Assembly (NCBI RefSeq): GCF_014696355.1
Contig: NZ_JACJQA010000044.1
Span: 1-35,974, forward strand
Reading direction: 5' to 3'
Origin: Pseudanabaena sp. FACHB-1998
GTDB taxonomy: Bacteria; Cyanobacteriota; Cyanobacteriia; Pseudanabaenales; Pseudanabaenaceae
DNA: 35,974 bases
The notes beneath the pieces are model-generated. The model saw nothing but the letters and a program-made list of their open reading frames with translations, ran no database searches and had not been told where the DNA came from. Position 1 is the stretch's first letter. Each line of letters begins with the position of its first letter. This document shows, one piece after another, positions 10,245-29,744 of this stretch. A program made the translations under genes and the position numbers.

Positions 10245-13166
10245 TTATTTGCCATTGCCAATCAAAATAAAAGAAGCCCAAAAATATGGATGTTGTAAAT
10301 TAGATTGAGGGGATTGCAGAAGACCTAATTGGGCTTGGCGAAGAGAATTAATCACATTACTTCCCTTTTGCAACTGCGTATAAAAATTACTCATCAATAA
10401 CTGTGTTCCTTGATCGCTGACCGTCCATAGTGAGGCGATCGCAGCTTTAGCTCCCGTACGCTGAATCTGATAGCCAAAGCCAAGAATTTCTTCCCCACTA
10501 CCCACAACCCCTCCAAGGGCAGTTTGACAAGCGCTTAAAACAACTAGTTGAGTATTGGGTAACTTCCATTCGCGCAACTCTCGCAAATTTAGGCGATCAC
10601 CATTTCCCATTAATACAAAGGAATCCTCTGGAGTTCCGTTGACAAAAGCCGCATGGGTTGCCAAATGAATCACACTATAGTTACCAAATTGAGAAACGAT
10701 CGCTTGACGATTGAAGAGGGTATCAACTAATTTGGTAGTGTCTGGAAAAGTTGTGGCAATCTTATCAATTTCTTTGCCAGCAAAGGGTAGTCCTTTAAAA
10801 GTAAACTTCTCATTGCCAATTTCAAACTTGACATCCCCTTGAGTAAAGGCTGCCGCAATGATTTTAAGAGAACCTTTAGCGACGGATGGGAAGTCTAAAA
10901 ATCCAGAAGCAGTTAAGTAATTAAAGCCATAGCGTTCGATTAACCACTTTTTGCCATCATAGAGCGCGGAGAGAGGGATATAACGCAATTTGCCATCAGG
11001 CGCATAAAGCAGAAGGTCAATATTGGCAGCTTGCAGATCTGCTTCAATCGGCTTGATGAGATATCGATAAAGTTTTGCCGAGGATTCTTTAACATCAGCA
11101 GAACTAGCATCTTGTAAATCGGCTCGAAAATCCTGTAATAGTTTAGTGAATTCCTCCACATTAACTTTAAGGGAACGTAAAATAGGGGCTGATTTGGCGG
11201 GAAGAAGCACTAAAAAAAGCTGATCTTCAAATAATAATGGATAAAATAATGAAGCCCGATCGCCAAATCTCTGGACATTCGCCAAGAGCGATCGCGAAGT
11301 GGCGAGATTCAGGCTTTCCCGTGCGGCTGTATTCTGGATTTGAGTTACTAGAGGTGAGCCGTTTAGGAGGATTTTTACATCAGTATTAATGAGCGCTTTT
11401 TCAGCGTCAAAAAGGGTGATGCCGATAGCCGTGCGATCGTTGCCTTTGACATCACGCAGATAGTCCTGTAACTCTTGAACCTTCAGTAAATCCAGAATTT
11501 GAATTGCTTCATTAATGCGATTTTGCTGGAGAAGTAATTTTGCTAAGTTGCGATAGGTATAGGAAACGCTTTGCTTATATGCCGAGCGATCTTCACGGGG
11601 TAACATCCTGATGGATTGACGAATTGCTTCGCGGACATTGATGGATTCTTTAAGATAGGCGATCGCACTTTCAAATTGTTTTTGCTGAGTAAGTAAATCC
11701 CCAATATTGGCAAGGACAACGGACTCGGTGCTGCGATCGCGTACTTCTCTAGCAATTTTTATCGCCTGTTGATAGGACGCGATCGCCTCGGCTTGCTTTC
11801 CTAAATTGGCATAGGCGCGACCCAGATTACTGAGCGCCACGCCTGTACCCGATAAATCTTTGACCTTTTCGTACTGTGCTAAAGCCTGTTGATGAAAAGC
11901 GATCGCCTGTTCCAATTGCCCGAGGCGAGAGTAGGTACTGCCAATATTGTCGAGGGTAATCCCAATTCCCAAATCATTGCCAATCTCTTGATAGGCTACT
12001 TTAGCTTTTTGAAAGAAGTTCAGAGCTTCTTTATATTTCCCACTGTTGCTGTAAAGTTGAGCAATATTATTGAGGTTATTAGCTTGTCCCGCTTTGACCG
12101 TGACATTATCGTTGGCAGTATCTCCTACCGTAGCCCGTACTGATAAACCTCGACTCGTCAAGGTCGGATTGCTGTTATCTTCCCCAAGGACATCATGGAG
12201 TAATTCTATTTCTGTTTTCTTTAAGCCGACAAAATCTTCAGGAGTGAGCTTGAAATAGATCTTGGTCGCTTGTTCGGCTAATTCCAAAGCACGGCGATTT
12301 TGTCCAAGACTGTAATAGAGAGCGCTGATATTGTTAATGATTGCTGCCTCATCACCTCGATAACAACAGAGCGTTCTTACAAGGGCTAGAGACTGTTCGT
12401 AGGATTCTAAGGCTTGGGCATATTGGGTTTGATTGGCATAAATTACACCAATATTATTTAAAGTCTGAACTCTCCCAATAGTATCTTTTTGCTCAACACT
12501 TCTGGGTAACATTTGCTGATAGCTAGCTAAGGCAAGATCGTATTGCGAAGATTTGAAATAAATGGAAGCCATGCGCGAAAGGGTCACGCTTTCACTGGTT
12601 AAGAGGCTATCCCGATCGCCTTTTTTTGCCTTAAGGCGATCGCGAAAAATATCCAGAGCCTGTTGATAAAGGGGCAAGGCTTGGGCATATTGCCTCTGTT
12701 TGTCATAGACATCAGCGATATATTGCAAGGTATAACCGACACTTACAGGATCGCCATCGGGAAACTTGGCGAGATCCTTTGCAATTACCAGTGCTTGCTG
12801 AAAATAGGGCATTGCTTTGTCATACTGCCCTGTTGTCAAATAAACATCACCTAAGATATTCAGGGTATCAAGCTCGCCGCCTGTCGCTTTCCATTTCCGA
12901 AACAGTTCCAGCGCCTTTTGCAAATCCGCGATCGCCCCCTGCGGATCGGCTTTTTGTAAGCGATCGTATCCCGATTGCTTGAGATAAACCGCTTCCGTAA
13001 TTTGTTGCGATCGCAAATCTTCAGAGGATTGAGCAGGGGATTGAGCAACTGTCTGAGCGATCGCGCTAAATTCTGATTTCGCAGCTAATTTTGTAAGTAT
13101 CAACGTTGGCGTAACGACAATCGCCAGCAATATTCCGAGCCTTACAAAACTACGAATTAAGCGCAT
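10245..13166 (-). CDS. Exported TPR-CHAT protein (caspase-like peptidase domain)
   Basis: This is a 973-residue protein with an N-terminal hydrophobic signal-like segment (about residues 8-28). About eleven tetratricopeptide repeats follow (about 55-560), for example LNNIGVIYANQTQYAQALES and LSNLGRAYANLGKQAEAIAS. The C-terminal CHAT domain (about 690-973) is of the type found in HetF and related caspase-like proteins. The expected catalytic pair is present: His838 in HLATHAAF and Cys880 in VLSACQTALGG, with the downstream SGEEILGFGYQIQRTGAKAAIASLW block. The function is probably protein binding through the TPRs coupled to regulated proteolysis. The signal suggests it acts outside the cytoplasm. 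It begins 2 bases after the stop of the TIGR03643 gene, so the two are very likely translated together. Confidence 0.92.
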   Translation of the reverse strand: MRLIRSFVRLGILLAIVVTPTLILTKLAAKSEFSAIAQTVAQSPAQSSEDLRSQQITEAVYLKQSGYDRLQKADPQGAIADLQKALELFRKWKATGGELDTLNILGDVYLTTGQYDKAMPYFQQALVIAKDLAKFPDGDPVSVGYTLQYIADVYDKQRQYAQALPLYQQALDIFRDRLKAKKGDRDSLLTSESVTLSRMASIYFKSSQYDLALASYQQMLPRSVEQKDTIGRVQTLNNIGVIYANQTQYAQALESYEQSLALVRTLCCYRGDEAAIINNISALYYSLGQNRRALELAEQATKIYFKLTPEDFVGLKKTEIELLHDVLGEDNSNPTLTSRGLSVRATVGDTANDNVTVKAGQANNLNNIAQLYSNSGKYKEALNFFQKAKVAYQEIGNDLGIGITLDNIGSTYSRLGQLEQAIAFHQQALAQYEKVKDLSGTGVALSNLGRAYANLGKQAEAIASYQQAIKIAREVRDRSTESVVLANIGDLLTQQKQFESAIAYLKESINVREAIRQSIRMLPREDRSAYKQSVSYTYRNLAKLLLQQNRINEAIQILDLLKVQELQDYLRDVKGNDRTAIGITLFDAEKALINTDVKILLNGSPLVTQIQNTAARESLNLATSRSLLANVQRFGDRASLFYPLLFEDQLFLVLLPAKSAPILRSLKVNVEEFTKLLQDFRADLQDASSADVKESSAKLYRYLIKPIEADLQAANIDLLLYAPDGKLRYIPLSALYDGKKWLIERYGFNYLTASGFLDFPSVAKGSLKIIAAAFTQGDVKFEIGNEKFTFKGLPFAGKEIDKIATTFPDTTKLVDTLFNRQAIVSQFGNYSVIHLATHAAFVNGTPEDSFVLMGNGDRLNLRELREWKLPNTQLVVLSACQTALGGVVGSGEEILGFGYQIQRTGAKAAIASLWTVSDQGTQLLMSNFYTQLQKGSNVINSLRQAQLGLLQSPQSNLQHPYFWASFILIGNGK

Positions 13167-21052: not shown

Positions 21053-21139
21053 CGGAGAGAGAGGGATTCGAACCCTCGTTAAAGTTTCCCCTAAACAGCA
21101 TTTCCAGTGCTGCGCCTTCAACCACTCGGCCATCTCTCC
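21053..21139 (-). tRNA. tRNA-Ser (anticodon GGA)
   Basis: Reading the minus strand from 21139, GGAGAGA pairs with TCTCTCC as the acceptor stem and the discriminator base is G. The anticodon loop CTGGAAA gives anticodon GGA. The molecule has a long variable arm (between about 21079 and 21097) and a T arm with GGTTCGAATCC, as expected for a class II serine tRNA of 87 bases. CCA is not encoded. It reads UCC/UCU codons. Confidence 0.97.
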
Positions 21140-22485: not shown

Positions 22486-23542
22486 CTTGATGAGCGCTTC
22501 TTAAGGTAGCAATGTCCTGAGATTCGGTTCCTCGGGGATTAGGTAGCCCCAAGGCATGAAGATCTGCGTCAACCATGAGTTCCACCAAACCTTTAAAGGT
22601 AACTTTAGGTTCCCAGCCAAGTTTTTGCTTAGCCTTAGTGCAGTCGCCTAATAGTAAATCTACCTCCGCAGGACGGAAATAGCGGGGATCGATCTCTACA
22701 TAATCTTCCCACTTAAGATTTACATAGGCAAAAGCTTCTTCAAGAAATTCTCGTACCGAGTGAGTTTCTCCTGTGGAAATTACATAGTCGTCTGGTTCAG
22801 ACTGTTGCAACATTAGCCACATCGCCTCGACGTAATCCTTGGCATAGCCCCAGTCACGCTTGGAGTCAAGATTACCTAGATACAACTTTTTCTGCTGTCC
22901 AGCCACAATGCGAGCGATCGCTCGCGTAATCTTTCTAGTTACAAAGGTTTCACCACGACGAGGGGACTCATGGTTAAACAAAATGCCATTGCAAGCAAAT
23001 AAGCCGTAGGATTCGCGATAGTTGATCGTTTGCCAGTGAGCGTAGACTTTAGCGCAGGCATAAGGACTGCGTGGATAAAAAGGTGTGGATTCACTTTGAG
23101 GCACAGCTTGGACAAGTCCATACATTTCTGAAGAACCTGCCTGATAAAAACGAATATCGCCTCCATTCCTCTGCTGATAATCGCGCAGGGCTTCTAATAG
23201 ACGTAAAGTACCCATGCCCACAGCATCCACTGTATATTCGGGTGAGTCAAAGCTAACTCTTACATGGGACTGAGCGCCGAGATTAAATACTTCATGAGGC
23301 TGAACTGCTTCTAAAATGCGTCCTAGGGTTGTCCCGTCGGTAAGATCGCCGTAGTGGAGAAACAATTTTGTTTCTGGTAAATGGGGATCTTGATACATAT
23401 GATCGAGGCGATCAGTATTAATCGTTGATGTGCGGCGAATAATTCCATGCACTTCATATCCTTTTGAGAGTAGAAGCTCCGATAGATACGATCCATCCTG
23501 ACCCGTAATGCCTGTGATTAAGGCGCGTTTAGATTTACTCAT
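22472..23542 (-). CDS. gmd: GDP-mannose 4,6-dehydratase
   Basis: This 356-residue SDR enzyme performs the first step of GDP-L-fucose synthesis, dehydrating GDP-mannose to the 4-keto-6-deoxy sugar. It shows [18 protein letters not shown] (NADP site, residues 7-24), the [13 protein letters not shown] loop, SSEMYG, the catalytic Tyr-x3-Lys in [12 protein letters not shown], and [16 protein letters not shown]. Length and motifs are standard. With fcl downstream it gives a complete GDP-mannose to GDP-fucose pathway. It lies downstream of the REC-GGDEF-EAL gene on the same strand, with two hairpins in the 267-base gap. Confidence 0.96.
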
Positions 23543-23649
23543 GAAGTATGGTGTAAAGACTCAACAAAAGTTTACTCGTTAGCATACCCAATAAACTCTA
23601 AAACTTATAAAGATTGATTGTATAGCTGTTGCCATTTTTGTTAGGACAC

Positions 23650-23703
23650 AAAACCAGAAGACGAGTTGCGGCGCGAAGCGCCGCAACTCGCTTCTTGGGT
23701 TTT
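23650..23703 (-). repeat. GC-rich hairpin upstream of gmd
   Basis: CGAGTTGCGGCGC (23662-23674) pairs perfectly with 23678-23690 across GAA (apex GC-GAA-GC). The flanks AAAACC..GAAG and CTTC..GGTTTT extend the stem imperfectly to about 23650-23703. Confidence 0.7.
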
Positions 23704-23759
23704 GATTTGCCCTAATGCAAGTGACCATAGCTATAATCATAGCCATAAGGTTTAACTCT

Positions 23760-23816
23760 GTTATGAAGCCAAGCTGAAAGTGCCGCGAAGCGGCACTTTC
23801 AGCTTGGCTTCATAAC
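23760..23816 (-). terminator. Perfect 27-bp hairpin overlapping the stop codon of the REC-GGDEF-EAL gene
   Basis: The 27-base arm 23790-23816 includes the TGA stop of the gene ending at 23810. It pairs without mismatch with 23760-23786 across GAA (apex GC-GAA-GC). It probably limits read-through from the regulator gene into gmd. Confidence 0.8.
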
Positions 23817-25549
23817 GATGTAGGTTTTGCTAAGGATTTACCTGCAATCAACATTTTCTCAAATTCGTTTGAGGGGAGAGGCGGACTAAAGAAATAACCT
23901 TGCATTTGATCGCAGCCATGTTCTTTTAAAAACTGAACTTGTTCCTCTGTCTCTACACCTTCGGCAACAACTTGTAGCGATAGACTATGGGCAAGATCAA
24001 TAATTGCTAAGGAAATAGTTGCATCATGGCGATCGGTGGTGATGTCCTGAATAAAGCAGCGATCGATTTTGAGGGCATTGACAGGGAAATGCTTGAGATA
24101 ACTTAAAGATGAATATCCTGTACCAAAATCATCGATCGCCACCTTAACCCCCATAGATTGCAACTGTGATAACACCTTAATTGTAAATTCGGCATTTTGC
24201 ATGATGATGCTTTCCGTGAGTTCAATCTCTAAATCACTTGGTTCTATGCCCGTTTCTATCAAAATATTGCTAATAATCTCTATCAAGTTATTTTCAGGTC
24301 GAAAATGTTGTCCTGATAAATTAACTGCCACAAATCCGTAGTTTATTCCTAATTCTTTCCACGATCGCATCTGCTCGCAAACTGATGACAACATTAGTTC
24401 ACTAAGGCGTAAAATTAAGCCCGTCTGTTCAGCTACAGGAATAAATTTGCTAGGCATAATGATTCCTAACTCAGGATGCTGCCATCTTGCTAAAGCTTCG
24501 GCTCCGATAATTTGCCCTGTTTGAAGATTTACTAAAGGCTGATAAAAAACTCGAAATTCTTGGCGATCGATCGCACGGTGTAAGCTATTAGCCAAAGCCA
24601 TATACTCCGACGACTGCACATTGAGATCAGAGCTAAATAACTTATAGCTATTTCTACCATTAGCTTTTGCATAGTACATTGCTAATTCTGCATTTTTGAT
24701 TAATCCATCTGCCTCCGCATGATCGTCGGGGAAAATTGTGATGCCGATACTGCTAGTAATAAATACTTCATGTCCATACAGGTTATAGGGACGGCTGAGG
24801 AGATCTAAGATCTTTTGAGTTGCTTGCTTAACACTTTGGGAATCTTTAATATCAGAAATAATCATCGCAAATTCATCTCCTTGAATTCGCGCCACCATGT
24901 CGCACGGCGCAGCGTAACGTCTAAGCCGTTCAGCGATCGCTTTAAATAATTGATCGCCAATATCAGTACCAAGAGTATTGTTAATGATATTGAAATTATC
25001 CATATCTAAAAAGAGTAGAGCTAAGGATTTGTTATTAATTTTGGCGTGAAGTACGGCTTGCGTCAGGGAGTCATGAAATAAGATGCGATTTGGTAACTGC
25101 GTCAGTCCGTCATGGTGAGATAGATATTCAAACCTAGCGCCCACAGCTTTGATTTCGTCATAGTAATGTTCTTTTACCGAATTATATTTTTGTAATCGCG
25201 ATGAAATTGCTCCTAACAATTCTGCGGAAGTAAAGGGCTTAGTCAGATAGTCGTCTGCCCCCAATTGCATCGCCTGCCGCATATCGGCTTTTTCGGTCAT
25301 CGCAGTTAGAAATATAAACGGAATCATCGAAGTCTTAGGCTCTTGCCGCAAAGTCACTAGAGTCCCGTAGCCGTCTAATTCGGGCATTGCAATGTCACAG
25401 ATGATCAAATCGGGTACAAATGTTTTGGCAATCTGTACGCCAACAACTCCATTTTCCGCACCTAGTACATCAAACCCTTCGTAAGAGAGGGTTTCCATTA
25501 TTTCCTCTCGTAAAGCTTCTACATCTTCGATGACTAGAATCGTTGTCAT
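23810..25549 (-). CDS. Response regulator with REC, GGDEF (degenerate) and EAL domains
   Basis: This 579-residue protein has a REC domain (1-122), with phospho-acceptor Asp52 in ICDIAMPE and Lys104 in YLTKPF. A GGDEF domain (about 145-310) follows, in which the active-site motif reads RIQGDEF, so the first Gly is Gln223 and diguanylate cyclase activity is probably weak or lost. The EAL domain (about 325-575) looks competent: GAEALARW (Glu351), IELTESI, DDFGTGYSSLSYL and VAEGVETEEQ. The likely net activity is c-di-GMP hydrolysis, controlled by phosphorylation. The neighbouring upstream gene on the same strand is the LOV/cyanobacteriochrome kinase, its probable partner. Confidence 0.92.
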   Translation of the reverse strand: MTTILVIEDVEALREEIMETLSYEGFDVLGAENGVVGVQIAKTFVPDLIICDIAMPELDGYGTLVTLRQEPKTSMIPFIFLTAMTEKADMRQAMQLGADDYLTKPFTSAELLGAISSRLQKYNSVKEHYYDEIKAVGARFEYLSHHDGLTQLPNRILFHDSLTQAVLHAKINNKSLALLFLDMDNFNIINNTLGTDIGDQLFKAIAERLRRYAAPCDMVARIQGDEFAMIISDIKDSQSVKQATQKILDLLSRPYNLYGHEVFITSSIGITIFPDDHAEADGLIKNAELAMYYAKANGRNSYKLFSSDLNVQSSEYMALANSLHRAIDRQEFRVFYQPLVNLQTGQIIGAEALARWQHPELGIIMPSKFIPVAEQTGLILRLSELMLSSVCEQMRSWKELGINYGFVAVNLSGQHFRPENNLIEIISNILIETGIEPSDLEIELTESIIMQNAEFTIKVLSQLQSMGVKVAIDDFGTGYSSLSYLKHFPVNALKIDRCFIQDITTDRHDATISLAIIDLAHSLSLQVVAEGVETEEQVQFLKEHGCDQMQGYFFSPPLPSNEFEKMLIAGKSLAKPTSL

Positions 25550-25622
25550 AATTACAATTAGACCTATGGACTAAAAATTTCCTAATATATTTACAATGCT
25601 TTGTGCTGCCATAAAAACGATT

Positions 25623-25791
25623 AAAGTTTTTAAAGATATCTTTTGCGGCACTTTTAAAAACTTTACCGTACTTTTTAGTTACTCCCTTCCGCGTGTAAAT
25701 ACCTAGTAGTGCGTGGAGGAGTAACACCCCCCCTAAGATTAACTGATTTGAGAGAGAGATTCACAAATCGGGCACTTTCTCAAATCAGTTA
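25623..25791 (-). repeat. Three inverted repeats between the kinase and the regulator genes
   Basis: AAAGTTTTTAAA pairs with 25651-25663 (25623-25663). GTTACTCC (25678) pairs with GGAGTAAC ending at 25725. TAACTGATTTGAGAGAG (25740-25756) pairs with one mismatch with 25775-25791. The last begins 3 bases after the kinase stop codon. They suggest partial termination or RNA processing between the two genes. Confidence 0.6.
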
Positions 25792-25794
25792 GGA

Positions 25795-28602
25795 TTAATT
25801 TAGATTAATTGGCAATTTAACTTGGACAGTTGTGCCATTATTCTCAACGCTATTAACTTTAATTGTTCCTCCCATCATATCTATTGATTTTTTAATAATC
25901 GCCATTCCTAAACCTGTACCTGAAATCATGCCGACATTATGCGCTCGGTAAAAATGCTCAAATATTTTATCTTGATCTATCTGAGGAATACCAATACCCT
26001 GATCTTGAATTTTAACCAGTAACTTAGGAGTTAAATCACTAGTTAAAGAAACTGTAAGCTTGACCTCCCCTCCTTCAGGAGAATATTTAATTGCATTGGA
26101 TAGTAAATTAGAAATAATTTGCTTAAAAAACTTAGTGTCAATGACCAAATGGGGAGGAGCATTAATATTCTTAAATATAACCTGATGATGATTGCTAGCC
26201 AATAGCTTTGCTTGTTCAATTATTTCTAAACAAAAATCATCTAAGTTAATATCTTCTGGTTGTAACTCAAATTTACCTGATTCAGTTTTACCAATTACTA
26301 GAACTTCTTCTAAGAGACTAGTCATTCCTTTGACTTCGCGTTGAATTTTATCAATTCTTTCTAGTTTTTTGTCTTCGGACATCTTGTGACCATAGTTACG
26401 CAGTAGATCACTAGCTGTCTGAATAGTCGCAAGCGGTGTCCGAAATTCATGGGAAGCTCTAGAGATAAACTGAGACTTAAGCTCATTGAGTTCTTTTTCT
26501 TTTAATAAGGCTCCTTCTAGTTGACTTAGACTCTGCTCTAATTGTTGAGTGCGATCGGCAACTTGACGCTCTAAATTTTTATTAAGATCCTGCACTCTCT
26601 CAAATAACTGTACTTGCTGAATAGCGATCGCCACATGATTTGCCAATTGCCTTAGTAAATCAATTTCAAAATCTTCCCAATTCCGAGGTGCGTAACATTG
26701 GTGAGCAATTAATAATCCCCATAAAGTATCTCCAAAAGAAATAGCTACAACTATATTGGCTTTTACATTAAATAGTTGCAGAAGTTCTTTATAGCAATCA
26801 CCTAAATTTGATAATTCAACATCATTAATACTAGAAATAGGGTTGCTTTGATATTGTAGTATATTTTCTTTGTTAAAGCAGGGGTCATTAATTGTACTGC
26901 CAATGACTGATAGAGATGGATGGTTAACAGCCTCTACCACAAATTTTCCAGTCCAATCATCTTGAAATTTATAAATTACAACTCGATCAATTCGCAATAA
27001 TTCTTGGGCTTCTTTAACGGTAATTGATAGAATTTGATCGAGATTTAGCTCTCGCTGTATTTTGAGTAAGATGACATTTAATAAACGTTCACGTTCACTT
27101 TGATAGCGTAATTGAGTCTCCACTTTCTTGCGTTCAGTAATGTCATAGTAACTACTCAAATACATGCGTTTGCCTTTATAGGTCATAATTCTTGTAGAAA
27201 CTAAAACATCTTTAAAGTTTCCATCTTTATGACGTATTCTCGTTTCAATGGTCATGGCTTGACCAGTTTCTTGTAGATGTTGTAATCTCTGTAAAGCTTT
27301 ATAATGCTCGTTAGGATCGGGATACAAAAAGTTAGTAAAGTCCTTACTATCATTAGCTTCAAAAATGGTATATCCCGTTAGATTTTCCATCCCATCATTG
27401 AAAATCGAAAAATAGCCTGAGTCATCGCTGAAGGTAATTCCTTCTTTAATGGAAGTAAGGACGGTACGCAGGCGTTCTTCGCTTTCGAGTAGTCTTTGGG
27501 TAGACTTTACTTGCTCAGTAATATCGGTTTGAATGCCAATATAGTTAGTTAGTTCACCGTGATCATTAAATACTGGCGCAATATAAAGATCGTTCCAAAA
27601 AGGTGTGCCATCTTTGCGATAGTTAAGTAAGACGGCATGACATTCGCGTTGTTCTTGAATGGCTTGATGCAAGTCTAAAATGCCAATTTGGCTCCGATCG
27701 CCACCTTGTAAAAAACGGCAATCTCGTCCAATTACCTCGGAAGCATTATAGCCCGTAATCCTTTCAAAGCTAGAATTGACATAGATCATGGGGTTATTCG
27801 GCTTAGTGGCATCAGTGATCACAATGCCATTGGAACTGGCCGCGATCGCCCGTTCGCGTAATTTGAGTGATTCCTCTACCCGATTGCGCTCGGAGACATC
27901 TCGTAAGGAGGCAACAACATAAACCATGCGATCGTCATCAATAGTTTCAGATACGCGCATTTCTGCGGAAGTGGTTTTACCGCGATTAAGAATATGTACA
28001 TCCGTACTTTCGCCGACAACGATAGGCAAGCCAAATATTTCCCCAATCATATCTTCGGTTTTACAACCAAATAATTCTTCCGCCGATTCATTGATATAGC
28101 GGACAATTCCTTCGCGATCGACTACTACCAAAGCATCAGAAGAAGCATTAATTAAATGACTAAACTTAGGATCACTTAATGGAAGTGCTTGAAGTTTTTT
28201 GTGGTCTTTATTATTGGCAATAATATTTTGACAAGTTCCAACAATTTTAGGTAGATCATTTTCAATTTTAAGAGCTAAAGAAATCAACAAACAGGTGTCA
28301 GGATCGCTGTGGCTGAAAGTAAACTCAATAATTTTCTGCGATCGCAAACATTTTTTGCAGTTTATGTTTAATAAATTAACCAAATCTATAGGCAAGCATT
28401 CAGATATTTCTTTGCCTATAAGATCGGAGCTTTTAATATTAACATTTTCCTCAAGTAAAAAATTAATGAAAGCATTATTTAAATCAGCAAATTCTAATAG
28501 TAAATCTTGTTCATTAGCAAGATTTATATTCACCAAATTTGTATTTGGTGTAACTACCAAAACAAAAATTCCGCATTGAATATGATCTAGAATATTTTGC
28601 AT
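25795..28602 (-). CDS. Soluble hybrid photoreceptor histidine kinase: PAS-PAS-LOV-PAS-cyanobacteriochrome GAF-HisKA-HATPase
   Basis: This 935-residue kinase has no membrane segment. It has a PAS-like N-terminus (1-130) and a PAS domain (about 150-240). A LOV domain (249-368) follows, with GRDCRFLQG (adduct Cys295, Gln299), Asn327, Asn337 and Gln358 at the same spacings from the Cys as in Chlamydomonas phototropin LOV1 (+4, +32, +42, +63). Next come another PAS (about 370-492) and a GAF of the DXCF cyanobacteriochrome class (about 510-675), with DPCF (Cys575), canonical bilin Cys603 in GDCYKELL, and VKANIVV and LWGLLIAHQC. A short coiled coil leads to HisKA (His718 in SHEFRTPL) and HATPase (NLLSNAIKYSPEGG, DQGIGI, GTGLGMAI). 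Likely a blue/violet-to-green bilin photocycle plus flavin blue-light sensing; the output probably goes to the adjacent REC-GGDEF-EAL protein. Spectral type is inferred, not seen. Confidence 0.93.
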   Translation of the reverse strand: MQNILDHIQCGIFVLVVTPNTNLVNINLANEQDLLLEFADLNNAFINFLLEENVNIKSSDLIGKEISECLPIDLVNLLNINCKKCLRSQKIIEFTFSHSDPDTCLLISLALKIENDLPKIVGTCQNIIANNKDHKKLQALPLSDPKFSHLINASSDALVVVDREGIVRYINESAEELFGCKTEDMIGEIFGLPIVVGESTDVHILNRGKTTSAEMRVSETIDDDRMVYVVASLRDVSERNRVEESLKLRERAIAASSNGIVITDATKPNNPMIYVNSSFERITGYNASEVIGRDCRFLQGGDRSQIGILDLHQAIQEQRECHAVLLNYRKDGTPFWNDLYIAPVFNDHGELTNYIGIQTDITEQVKSTQRLLESEERLRTVLTSIKEGITFSDDSGYFSIFNDGMENLTGYTIFEANDSKDFTNFLYPDPNEHYKALQRLQHLQETGQAMTIETRIRHKDGNFKDVLVSTRIMTYKGKRMYLSSYYDITERKKVETQLRYQSERERLLNVILLKIQRELNLDQILSITVKEAQELLRIDRVVIYKFQDDWTGKFVVEAVNHPSLSVIGSTINDPCFNKENILQYQSNPISSINDVELSNLGDCYKELLQLFNVKANIVVAISFGDTLWGLLIAHQCYAPRNWEDFEIDLLRQLANHVAIAIQQVQLFERVQDLNKNLERQVADRTQQLEQSLSQLEGALLKEKELNELKSQFISRASHEFRTPLATIQTASDLLRNYGHKMSEDKKLERIDKIQREVKGMTSLLEEVLVIGKTESGKFELQPEDINLDDFCLEIIEQAKLLASNHHQVIFKNINAPPHLVIDTKFFKQIISNLLSNAIKYSPEGGEVKLTVSLTSDLTPKLLVKIQDQGIGIPQIDQDKIFEHFYRAHNVGMISGTGLGMAIIKKSIDMMGGTIKVNSVENNGTTVQVKLPINLN

Positions 28603-28703
28603 AATCGCTCAATTCCCTAATAAATATTGCGGCTAAAACATATCTGTAGCGATCTTACTTTATCTACAATCAATTAATAATTTTGATACATTGCTTAACT
28701 TGA

Positions 28704-28816
28704 TATAGCAATCCTATTTCATTTGTGAGAAAGACAAGGCGCTTAAGCCCCTTGTTATAAGTTTCTGTTTCCAAGACTCATTTAGGATTGCTATAGCAAT
28801 CCTAAATGAGTCTTGG
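28704..28816 (+). repeat. Repeat cluster with a perfect 23-bp palindrome, in a 311-base gap
   Basis: The gap 28603-28913 holds the divergent leaders of the kinase and HMA genes. CCAAGACTCATTTAGGATTG (from 28771) runs into its exact complement to 28816 with centre GCTATAGC. A partial copy (TATAGCAATCCTATTTCATT) lies at about 28704, and a smaller stem CAAGG-CCTTG with GCTTAAGC centre lies at about 28736-28754. I see no gene in the gap. Confidence 0.7.
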
Positions 28817-28913
28817 AAAATTAAATAATTTTTTGAGGTTGCGCTATTTTGGATTTGGGGCGCAAGCTATAGTTATTCAGTATTGTCAATTAACCATAAT
28901 ATTGTCGTTTTTT

Positions 28914-29108
28914 ATGTCTATTAAACTATCCGTTCCTTCCATTGGTTGTGCTAGCTGCATTGAGACTATCACCAAGGCGATCCAAGCTGTTGATACTCAA
29001 GCTACGATTTCAGGTGATTCTGCAACTAAGTCTCTAGAAATTGATAGTCAGTTGTCGGAAGCAAAGATCCGCGAACTAATAGTTGTTGCTGGTCATCAAG
29101 TTGCTTAG
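28914..29108 (+). CDS. Heavy-metal-associated (HMA) domain protein, copper-chaperone-like
   Basis: This small 64-residue ferredoxin-like protein has the metal-binding Cys-x-x-Cys in SIGCASCIETI (Cys12, Cys15). It ends near AGHQVA like Atx1-type chaperones, which carry Cu(I) to P-type ATPases, in cyanobacteria towards thylakoid plastocyanin. I chose the ATG at 28914 because it gives a canonical-length chaperone. The frame is open upstream from 28806, but that part runs through palindromic repeat DNA. No copper ATPase gene is nearby. Confidence 0.85.
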   Translation: MSIKLSVPSIGCASCIETITKAIQAVDTQATISGDSATKSLEIDSQLSEAKIRELIVVAGHQVA

Positions 29109-29125
29109 TATTCAGACAATCAATA

Positions 29126-29200
29126 ATACCAAAGCACAAAATGGCTACGCCATTTTGTGCTTTTAAAACCCTTACTGGATTTGGTTTTTAATTCAAAAAA
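29126..29200 (+). repeat. Second-family repeat with hairpin, after the HMA gene
   Basis: AATACCAAAG opens the element. A perfect stem AAAGCACAAAATGGC / GCCATTTTGTGCTTT (29131-29163) encloses TAC (apex GC-TAC-GC). The following AAAACCCTTACTGGATTTGG and TTTTAATTCA resemble the element at 15376. It lies between the convergent HMA and moaC genes. Confidence 0.7.
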
Positions 29201-29240
29201 GACATAGTGTTGCTTTGCGGTACTACTCTTTGGTCATAGA

Positions 29241-29744
29241 TTAAAAGTCATGGCTAGCAGCATTGAAATCCCCAGATTTACCGCCACTCTTATGTAATAA
29301 CCTTGCATTGGAAATGATCATCGTCTTTTCCAGAGATTTAGCCATATCGTAAATGGTTAAAGCAGCGATCGTTGCTGCTGTAAGAGCCTCCATTTCTACA
29401 CCCGTTTCTGCTTTGGACTTAACTTCAGCTTCGATCTGATATCCAGGAATATTTTCATCTAAAATAATCTTGACATCAACACTAGTTAAATTTAAGGGAT
29501 GACACATCGGGATCAGGTTGGGCGTTTGCTTAGCCGCCATGATGCCCGCTAGCCTTGCTGTTCCTAAAACATCCCCCTTAGGCAAGTCGCCTGCTTGAAT
29601 GGCATCTAAGGTTGTGGTTTTCATGGATATTTCGCATACAGCGATCGCCCTTCGCACAGTTTGCGGTTTATGAGTCACATCCACCATTTGAGCATTACCA
29701 CTTTGATCAAGATGAGCGAGCGACTGAAGAGAATCCGTATCCAT
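29241..29744 (-). CDS. moaC: Cyclic pyranopterin monophosphate synthase (molybdenum cofactor)
   Basis: MoaC converts the MoaA product (3',8-cyclo-7,8-dihydro-GTP) to cyclic pyranopterin monophosphate in molybdopterin synthesis. The 167-residue protein has [14 protein letters not shown] (residues 20-33), [14 protein letters not shown] (MCHPL at 80-84), [11 protein letters not shown] (114-124), [10 protein letters not shown] with the catalytic Asp133/Lys136 region, and KSGGKSGDF (152-160). It is full length. It is divergently oriented from tsaE across 155 bases. No other moa genes are in the window. Confidence 0.97.

Follow-up and report, generated by a model that had tools for sequence, protein, structure and literature searches.

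A histidine kinase with predicted LOV and DXCF cyanobacteriochrome photosensors, encoded next to a REC-GGDEF-EAL gene in Pseudanabaena

In LOV photoreceptor domains, blue light causes a cysteinyl-flavin adduct to form, and darkness restores the original state. According to excerpts of PMC10513317, the Synechocystis histidine kinase CcaS combines a cyanobacteriochrome GAF domain with a LOV-like PAS domain that appears to bind flavin in one protein, and its engineered form in E. coli (Highlighter) shows flavin-like spectra and a response to blue light. Typical GAF domains of the DXCF class, as described in part of PMC11284453, isomerise phycocyanobilin (PCB) to phycoviolobilin (PVB) and alternate between a blue and a green form as a second cysteine bond is made and broken. 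In excerpts of PMC6798134 multi-sensor kinases, such as the engineered LOV-plus-heme kinase YHF, are thought to combine their inputs along helical coiled coils. Blue light also affects cyanobacterial phosphodiesterases acting on cyclic diguanylate (c-di-GMP): the available part of PMC8846402 reports that SL2 (LOV-GGDEF-EAL) is activated by blue light and that SesB, which carries a cyanobacteriochrome, responds to blue light with inhibition and to teal light with activation. Here we analyse a contig of 35,974 nucleotides from Pseudanabaena sp. FACHB-1998 (NZ_JACJQA010000044.1, assembly GCF_014696355.1), subsequently called the window, which encodes a sensor histidine kinase bearing both a predicted LOV domain with its adduct cysteine and a DXCF-type cyanobacteriochrome GAF domain. 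An initial annotation had proposed this combination from the sequence of the window.

The kinase gene is an uninterrupted open reading frame of 935 codons with an ATG start at positions 25795–28602 of the minus strand, on which all features located below also lie. Together with a Pfam scan, in which the best stretch of each family was taken, it gives the architecture PAS-PAS-LOV-PAS-GAF(DXCF)-HisKA-HATPase. All residues that the initial annotation had singled out (Cys295, Gln299, Asn327, Asn337, Gln358, Cys575, Cys603 and His718) were found at the positions it gave. The protein has the hallmarks of a histidine kinase: Pfam and the alignment show an intact HisKA domain (residues 709–776, 26275–26478) with the phospho-acceptor His718 in the motif SHEFRTP (codon 26449–26451) and an intact HATPase_c domain (residues 822–932, 25807–26139). 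His718 is conserved throughout our alignment of 30 orthologs, which includes the window protein and two sequences that are partial at the N terminus. The highest mean hydropathy over 19 residues is 1.65 and falls at residue 615 within the GAF domain, consistent with a soluble protein. The earlier description of a single polypeptide with intact HisKA and HATPase domains is borne out.

Pfam names the two sensor regions only PAS and GAF, with no LOV or cyanobacteriochrome model among its matches. Residues 252–365 (27508–27849; Pfam PAS_9, 258–363) were assigned by matches to sequences in the PDB and by conservation. With residues 245–371 as query, 158 different PDB sequences matched at E ≤ 0.001, far outside what chance would give. 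The top match (E 2e-40) was 7r5n ('Sensory box protein'), presumably a LOV protein from Pseudomonas, which also has the DCRFLQ core; phototropins, aureochromes, YtvA and LOV kinases were among the best 60 of the 158. By sequence, the closest relatives of this PAS domain are LOV photoreceptors and not other PAS domains. The adduct cysteine Cys295 (VIGRDCRFLQG, codon 27718–27720) is present together with all of the contact residues for flavin mononucleotide (FMN), namely Gln299, Asn327, Asn337 and Gln358. The GRDCRFLQG stretch is no warning sign, since three of the four PDB alignments inspected also carry the Asp in front of the cysteine. Cys295 and the Gln at +4 are kept in 29/30 orthologs; among these 29, the second contact Asn is replaced by Val in loci L047 and L048. 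With a mean identity of 0.89 compared to 0.38–0.85 for the other sensor domains (23 members of the genus), this is the most conserved sensor domain of the protein. These comparisons support residues 252–365 as a LOV photoreceptor domain, which would be expected to bind FMN.

Residues 505–680 (26563–27090; Pfam GAF, 520–661) were assigned to the cyanobacteriochromes by sequence and fold comparison. Of the 78 distinct PDB sequences found with the GAF region at E ≤ 0.001, PPHK (6oap, E 6.5e-39) ranked first and miRFP670nano second, and TePixJ (3vv4) was found at 1.4e-26. In the predicted structure, residues 519–664 superimpose on miRFP670nano with Z 25.1 and a root-mean-square deviation (rmsd) of 1.4 over 146 residues; for residues 517–665 and TePixJ in its blue form, Z is 23.7 and the rmsd 2.2 over 149 residues. 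Ranks 1–9 of the fold comparison for the GAF domain were all cyanobacteriochromes, with rows within 1 Z regarded as tied. VIA-align is little informative on the LOV domain because it re-aligns the best 1000 structures of Foldseek and its rows span mainly residues 386–671. No PHY domain was found among the Pfam matches of the window protein.

The second cysteine of the DXCF motif, Cys575 (NDPCFN, codon 26878–26880), and the predicted canonical attachment cysteine, Cys603 (GDCYKE, codon 26794–26796), are 28 residues apart, and the TePixJ sequence (DPCF...ECH) has the same spacing, as the initial annotation had noted. Cys603 aligns with the cysteine position of TePixJ, PPHK and miRFP670nano. Each of the two GAF cysteines is kept in 27/30 orthologs and both in 26/30; all three cysteines, including that of the LOV domain, are found in 25/30. 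Such conservation rules out that the cysteine matches arose by chance. Both bilin cysteines are gone in L035 and L037, where the LOV domain is kept; this joint loss fits with the cysteines working as a pair. The residue after Cys603 is Tyr in the window protein and in four other orthologs and His in 25/30, a change that may tune the colour. In a tree of GAF domains with weak deep forks, the window GAF lies in the half that is rich in DXCF domains and also contains CL-type GAFs. Sequence and structural model together support residues 505–680 as a DXCF-type cyanobacteriochrome GAF domain. It probably binds PCB or PVB; blue and green forms are typical for DXCF domains but are not fixed by the sequence.

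The genome (G000; 4.78 Mb in 64 contigs) encodes one bilin reductase, identified as PcyA with NCBIfam NF002760 (352 bits, cut-off 206), and two heme oxygenases, so PCB should be available to the cell. The proposal of the initial annotation that a LOV domain and a DXCF cyanobacteriochrome reside in one kinase is thus upheld by the best sequence matches of both domains, the fold matches of the GAF domain, the genus-wide cysteines and the genes for PcyA and heme oxygenase. The possibility that both regions are ordinary PAS and GAF domains, which it had named as an objection, was rejected on the best LOV and cyanobacteriochrome matches in sequence and fold (E 2e-40 for the LOV domain, E 6.5e-39 and Z 25.1 for the GAF domain). 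That the kinase would integrate flavin and bilin signals is a prediction from the domain content.

The initial annotation mentioned neither the additional PAS domains nor a REC-GGDEF-EAL gene that lies just downstream. An N-terminal PAS-like region (residues 1–128, 28219–28602) was recognized from the strand and helix pattern of the model and from conservation. It changes fast (mean identity within the genus 0.38) and contains no best Pfam stretch in the window protein, while PAS_4 is found at 19–118 in ortholog L046. A PAS domain at residues 146–235 (27898–28167; Pfam PAS_8 146–191, PAS_4 152–190) precedes the LOV domain, and another at residues 378–490 (27133–27471; Pfam PAS_3 402–481) lies between the LOV and GAF domains; both are supported by conservation. 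The full-length structure was predicted from 24 of the 30 aligned orthologs, leaving out L030, L033, L037, L040, L045 and L049, and reached a mean pLDDT of 76.8. It shows a single continuous helix from the GAF to the HisKA domain (residues 644–719). When the whole model was compared by fold, the top matches included LOV histidine kinases.

Matches to the kinase at E ≤ 1e-100 were found in 34 of 58 genomes: its own, 25/25 of the same genus (L040 and L045 being partial), 7/9 of the same family and 1/23 of the others. Loci L051–L054, from Pseudanabaena members of the genus, are the same loci as L260, L265, L269 and L270, as shown by identical scores. In L047 and L048, which lie outside the genus and carry the LOV domain, both GAF cysteines are kept at a GAF identity of 46% and 44%.

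The presumed partner is a response regulator of 579 residues with REC, GGDEF and EAL domains (23810–25549), identified by open reading frame, Pfam and synteny. The REC domain (residues 3–114, 25208–25543) contains a conserved CDxxMPE stretch, the GGDEF domain (residues 143–299, 24653–25123) is degenerate (RIQGDEF), and the EAL domain (residues 320–556, 23882–24592) retains intact catalytic motifs. We examined 20 of the 29 orthologous loci besides the window, 17 from Pseudanabaena and three from other members of the family, whose genomes represent two further genera. In 20/20 a REC-GGDEF-EAL gene comes next on the strand of the kinase, starting about 8–360 bp past the kinase stop codon. The pair also stays together in the three genomes outside the genus, where the other tested neighbours of the window were not found in the fetched stretch; in 15 of the 17 loci from Pseudanabaena it is followed by the window's genes for GDP-mannose dehydratase and an epimerase. 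Across 21 partner sequences, DDFG and CDxxMPE are invariant (21/21 each), and EAL and the other motifs show few changes among the sequences listed. The GGDEF motif reads QGDEF in 18/21 and has departed further (GDQF, GDVF) in 3/21. Since the EAL motifs are conserved and the GGDEF motif is degenerate, c-di-GMP breakdown is the likely output; judged by its motifs, the neighbouring enzyme probably degrades c-di-GMP.

In the window, the interval from the kinase to the partner gene has no terminator-like site on the minus strand. Terminator-like sites in 23500–29300 numbered 11, compared to 3.7 in shuffled sequences; the 14 promoter-like sites of this region were below the 19.7 of the shuffles and were not used. 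Directly past the kinase stop codon, an inverted repeat with 13-bp arms (AACTGATTTGAGA and TCTCAAATCAGTT) was recognized by eye at 25741–25790; lying in an unusually long gap, it may be a small inserted repeat. Elsewhere in the window we observed a tRNA-Ser (GGA) at 21053–21139, the sole match of the Rfam and tRNA scans, and a TPR-CHAT protein of 973 residues at 10245–13166.

A LOV match at 1e-32 is present in 167 of 388 genomes of the class. We surveyed 95 regions, 93 from among the LOV matches listed and two from the genome of the window, and found in 80 an open reading frame with the LOV Cys and Gln. Seven of these 80 also carry a GAF domain with the canonical cysteine, and all seven are of the DXCF type (L190, L197, L206, L232, L236, L243 and L244). 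Two more cases came from a search with 15 aligned orthologs as query (L056, Coleofasciculus sp. LEGE 07092) and from a GAF search (L284). The distance between LOV and GAF is 254 residues in L056 and 253 in both L232 and the window protein; at the threshold used, a PAS domain between them was called in L232 and not in L056. In L206 and L243 the LOV domain adjoins the GAF domain, and in L190 the GAF domain precedes it. An HATPase domain was found in all six hybrids scanned (L056, L190, L206, L232, L236 and L243). An intact LOV cysteine next to a CL-type GAF (EVF...PCL), presumably CcaS/RcaE-like, occurs in L321 (G187). We therefore rejected the idea that a LOV and DXCF kinase is unique, as the combination also exists outside the Pseudanabaenaceae, and dropped the idea that LOV pairs exclusively with DXCF domains, for which L321 is the counterexample. 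Judged from these open reading frames, the combination of LOV and cyanobacteriochrome is a recurring theme across cyanobacteria.

Our initial test of DXCF pairing compared the 7/7 of the survey with 40 of 80 canonical-Cys GAFs from six genomes (Fisher p 0.011), a background that includes the LOV-linked L284 and L321 and lacks 7 of 107 GAF places that were not fetched. Moreover, the hybrid GAFs are not independent events, because those of several genomes fall into one cluster of the GAF tree. This tree separates the Pseudanabaena sequences, L190/L197 and a group of L056, L206, L232, L236, L243, L244 and L284; the group has a support of 89/87 and is not starred, the deep forks are weak and the bootstrap had not converged. 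The LOV tree, built on few columns, gives four label changes, of which the starred branches force just one. The two trees do not discriminate between a single and several origins of the LOV-GAF fusion.

The survey also revealed LOV domains in which Ser replaces the adduct Cys at 12/95 loci, with the other flavin contacts kept (L191, L200, L217, L218, L220, L222, L235, L238, L242, L249, L250 and L253). In L218 such a domain lies beside a CL-type cyanobacteriochrome GAF. A cysteine-less LOV-like domain (GKTPRLLQ) between two CL-type GAFs in L300 (G379) resembles CcaS.

We computed the domain identities, conserved cysteines, gene pairing and chromophore-biosynthesis genes, and consider it likely that the protein is a soluble two-chromophore photoreceptor histidine kinase acting on the adjacent REC-GGDEF-EAL protein; chromophore binding, colours, the direction of the light effect, phosphotransfer to this partner and the c-di-GMP output are the predicted parts of this proposal. 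The LOV domain would bind FMN, and blue light would reversibly join Cys295 to the flavin in an adduct that is lost again in darkness. In the GAF domain, PCB would be attached via Cys603 and probably converted wholly or partly to PVB, with Cys575 forming a second bond that light can break. This would give a blue-absorbing 15Z and a green-to-orange-absorbing 15E form, and green or orange light would revert the switch. As both sensors are placed in series ahead of the HisKA helices, blue light would drive both; the LOV signal would be transient and the bilin signal stored until longer wavelengths erase it. The kinase would then alter the phosphorylation of the REC domain in the neighbouring protein, whose intact EAL domain would hydrolyse c-di-GMP. 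The whole would resemble a light switch with two pigments that governs how the cell behaves. Whether the kinase follows an OR, an AND or a ratio logic is not readable from the sequence. More tentatively, and with some doubt on our side, the orthologs may represent a conserved class in which a decaying flavin switch and a bistable, green-erasable bilin switch act in series and c-di-GMP breakdown reports blue light and the blue-to-green ratio, throughout Pseudanabaena and recurring in other cyanobacteria. If true, the kinase would itself keep a memory of light on both a short and a long time scale.

Several observations speak against this proposal. The canonical cysteine is lost in L035, L037 and L038 and the DXCF cysteine in L035, L037 and L046, with LOV kept in all of them; the bilin input (3/30 lost at each position) is therefore less strictly kept than the flavin input. 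Conversely, ortholog L049 keeps both bilin cysteines and has no LOV domain at the corresponding place, and no LOV match at 1e-32 was found in three genomes of the same family (G026, G031 and G033). TePixJ falls into the other half of the GAF tree, where deep forks are weak. The pTM of 0.35 means that the domain arrangement is not given by the model. The degenerate GGDEF domain may still be active. Finally, of the 20 other loci, 19 have a shorter kinase-partner gap than the 245 bp of the window, so that co-transcription in the window is not certain.

The uneven retention of the two inputs would suit a kinase that senses blue light through its LOV domain only, with a GAF domain that is a bilin-binding relic or binds bilin without effect on the kinase: the LOV cysteine is found in 29/30 orthologs and the bilin cysteine pair in 26/30, LOV and kinase are retained in two orthologs without both GAF cysteines and in one without Cys603, and mean identity within the genus is 0.89 for LOV and 0.75 for GAF. 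However, the same 26/30 include L047 and L048 outside the genus as well as the LOV-less L049, and in the model an unbroken helix (644–719) joins the GAF domain to HisKA; we regard this reading as unlikely. The converse, a bilin-sensing kinase whose LOV domain is a redox or dimerisation module without blue-light sensing, appears very improbable to us. It has a parallel in CcaS, whose cysteine-less LOV-like domain appears to bind flavin according to excerpts of PMC10513317, and in the Ser-for-Cys domains of the 12/95 surveyed loci; but the adduct cysteine is present with its FMN contacts in 29/30 orthologs (apart from the Val at the second Asn in two), so that a light-insensitive LOV domain is not the simplest reading. 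Both sensors might also work on another regulator, with REC-GGDEF-EAL serving a different kinase. The genome does contain many related signalling proteins, with 85 places matching the kinase at E ≤ 1e-10 (itself included), and the 245-bp gap of the window would be compatible with such wiring. Against this stands the same-strand adjacency in 20/20 loci, including the three genomes outside the genus without the other tested neighbours. We consider a different target improbable and prefer the reading of a two-chromophore kinase acting on its neighbour.

The proposed kinase would make signal integration directly testable, as it carries two chemically different photoswitches and exchanging one cysteine is enough to silence either of them, and its pairing with a predicted phosphodiesterase offers a measurable output. 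Natural controls exist in L035 and L037 (both bilin cysteines lost), L038 (canonical cysteine lost), L046 (DXCF cysteine lost) and L049 (LOV absent). For engineering, it would provide a compact kinase that responds to two colours.

Among the papers listed in our searches of an open-licence library, we recognised none on a natural protein that combines an intact LOV domain with a DXCF cyanobacteriochrome, which is not to say that none has been published; the available parts of PMC6798134, PMC5812497, PMC4469895, PMC8846402, PMC5578081, PMC11480761, PMC8582858 and PMC10572898 do not mention one. Two photosensory modules in one protein are also found in Ppr, a PYP-bacteriophytochrome kinase (excerpts of PMC5812497), and in dualchrome (abstract of PMC11879098), which use other chromophore pairs. 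In SL2 and SesB, as far as the excerpts of PMC8846402 go, the sensor is fused to the phosphodiesterase, whereas the window kinase is predicted to act by phosphotransfer to the REC-GGDEF-EAL protein.

Among proteins known from our structure searches, PPHK of Leptolyngbya JSC-1 (6oap) is the top PDB match of the GAF domain and likewise a two-input kinase, which the title of the paper on it reportedly describes as a molecular logic OR. It carries a REC domain, and its second input is phosphorylation, according to its name, and not a LOV domain; its GAF domain has DQYF instead of DXCF. TePixJ shares the DPCF motif, the canonical Cys 28 residues away and the fold (Z 23.7), but is named in the PDB as a methyl-accepting chemotaxis protein and is not a kinase, and its canonical Cys is followed by His where Cys603 is followed by Tyr. 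Short Pseudomonas LOV proteins (the one matched is presumably of the PpSB type) and LOV kinases are similar in the LOV domain (E 2e-40, DCRFLQ core) and are not known to have a bilin domain. The membrane-anchored CcaS differs in having a green/red GAF domain and, as its second PAS domain, a LOV-like GKTPRVLQ domain without the cysteine; DPCF and Cys295 of the window kinase place it outside the CcaS type, defined by a green/red GAF domain without DXCF and a Cys-less LOV-like PAS domain, although it would work in a similar way. CcaS is nevertheless the nearest precedent we found, albeit a partial one. The window kinase is real, well conserved and functionally coherent; it is a variant within the multi-sensor photoreceptor kinases and does not represent a kind of its own.

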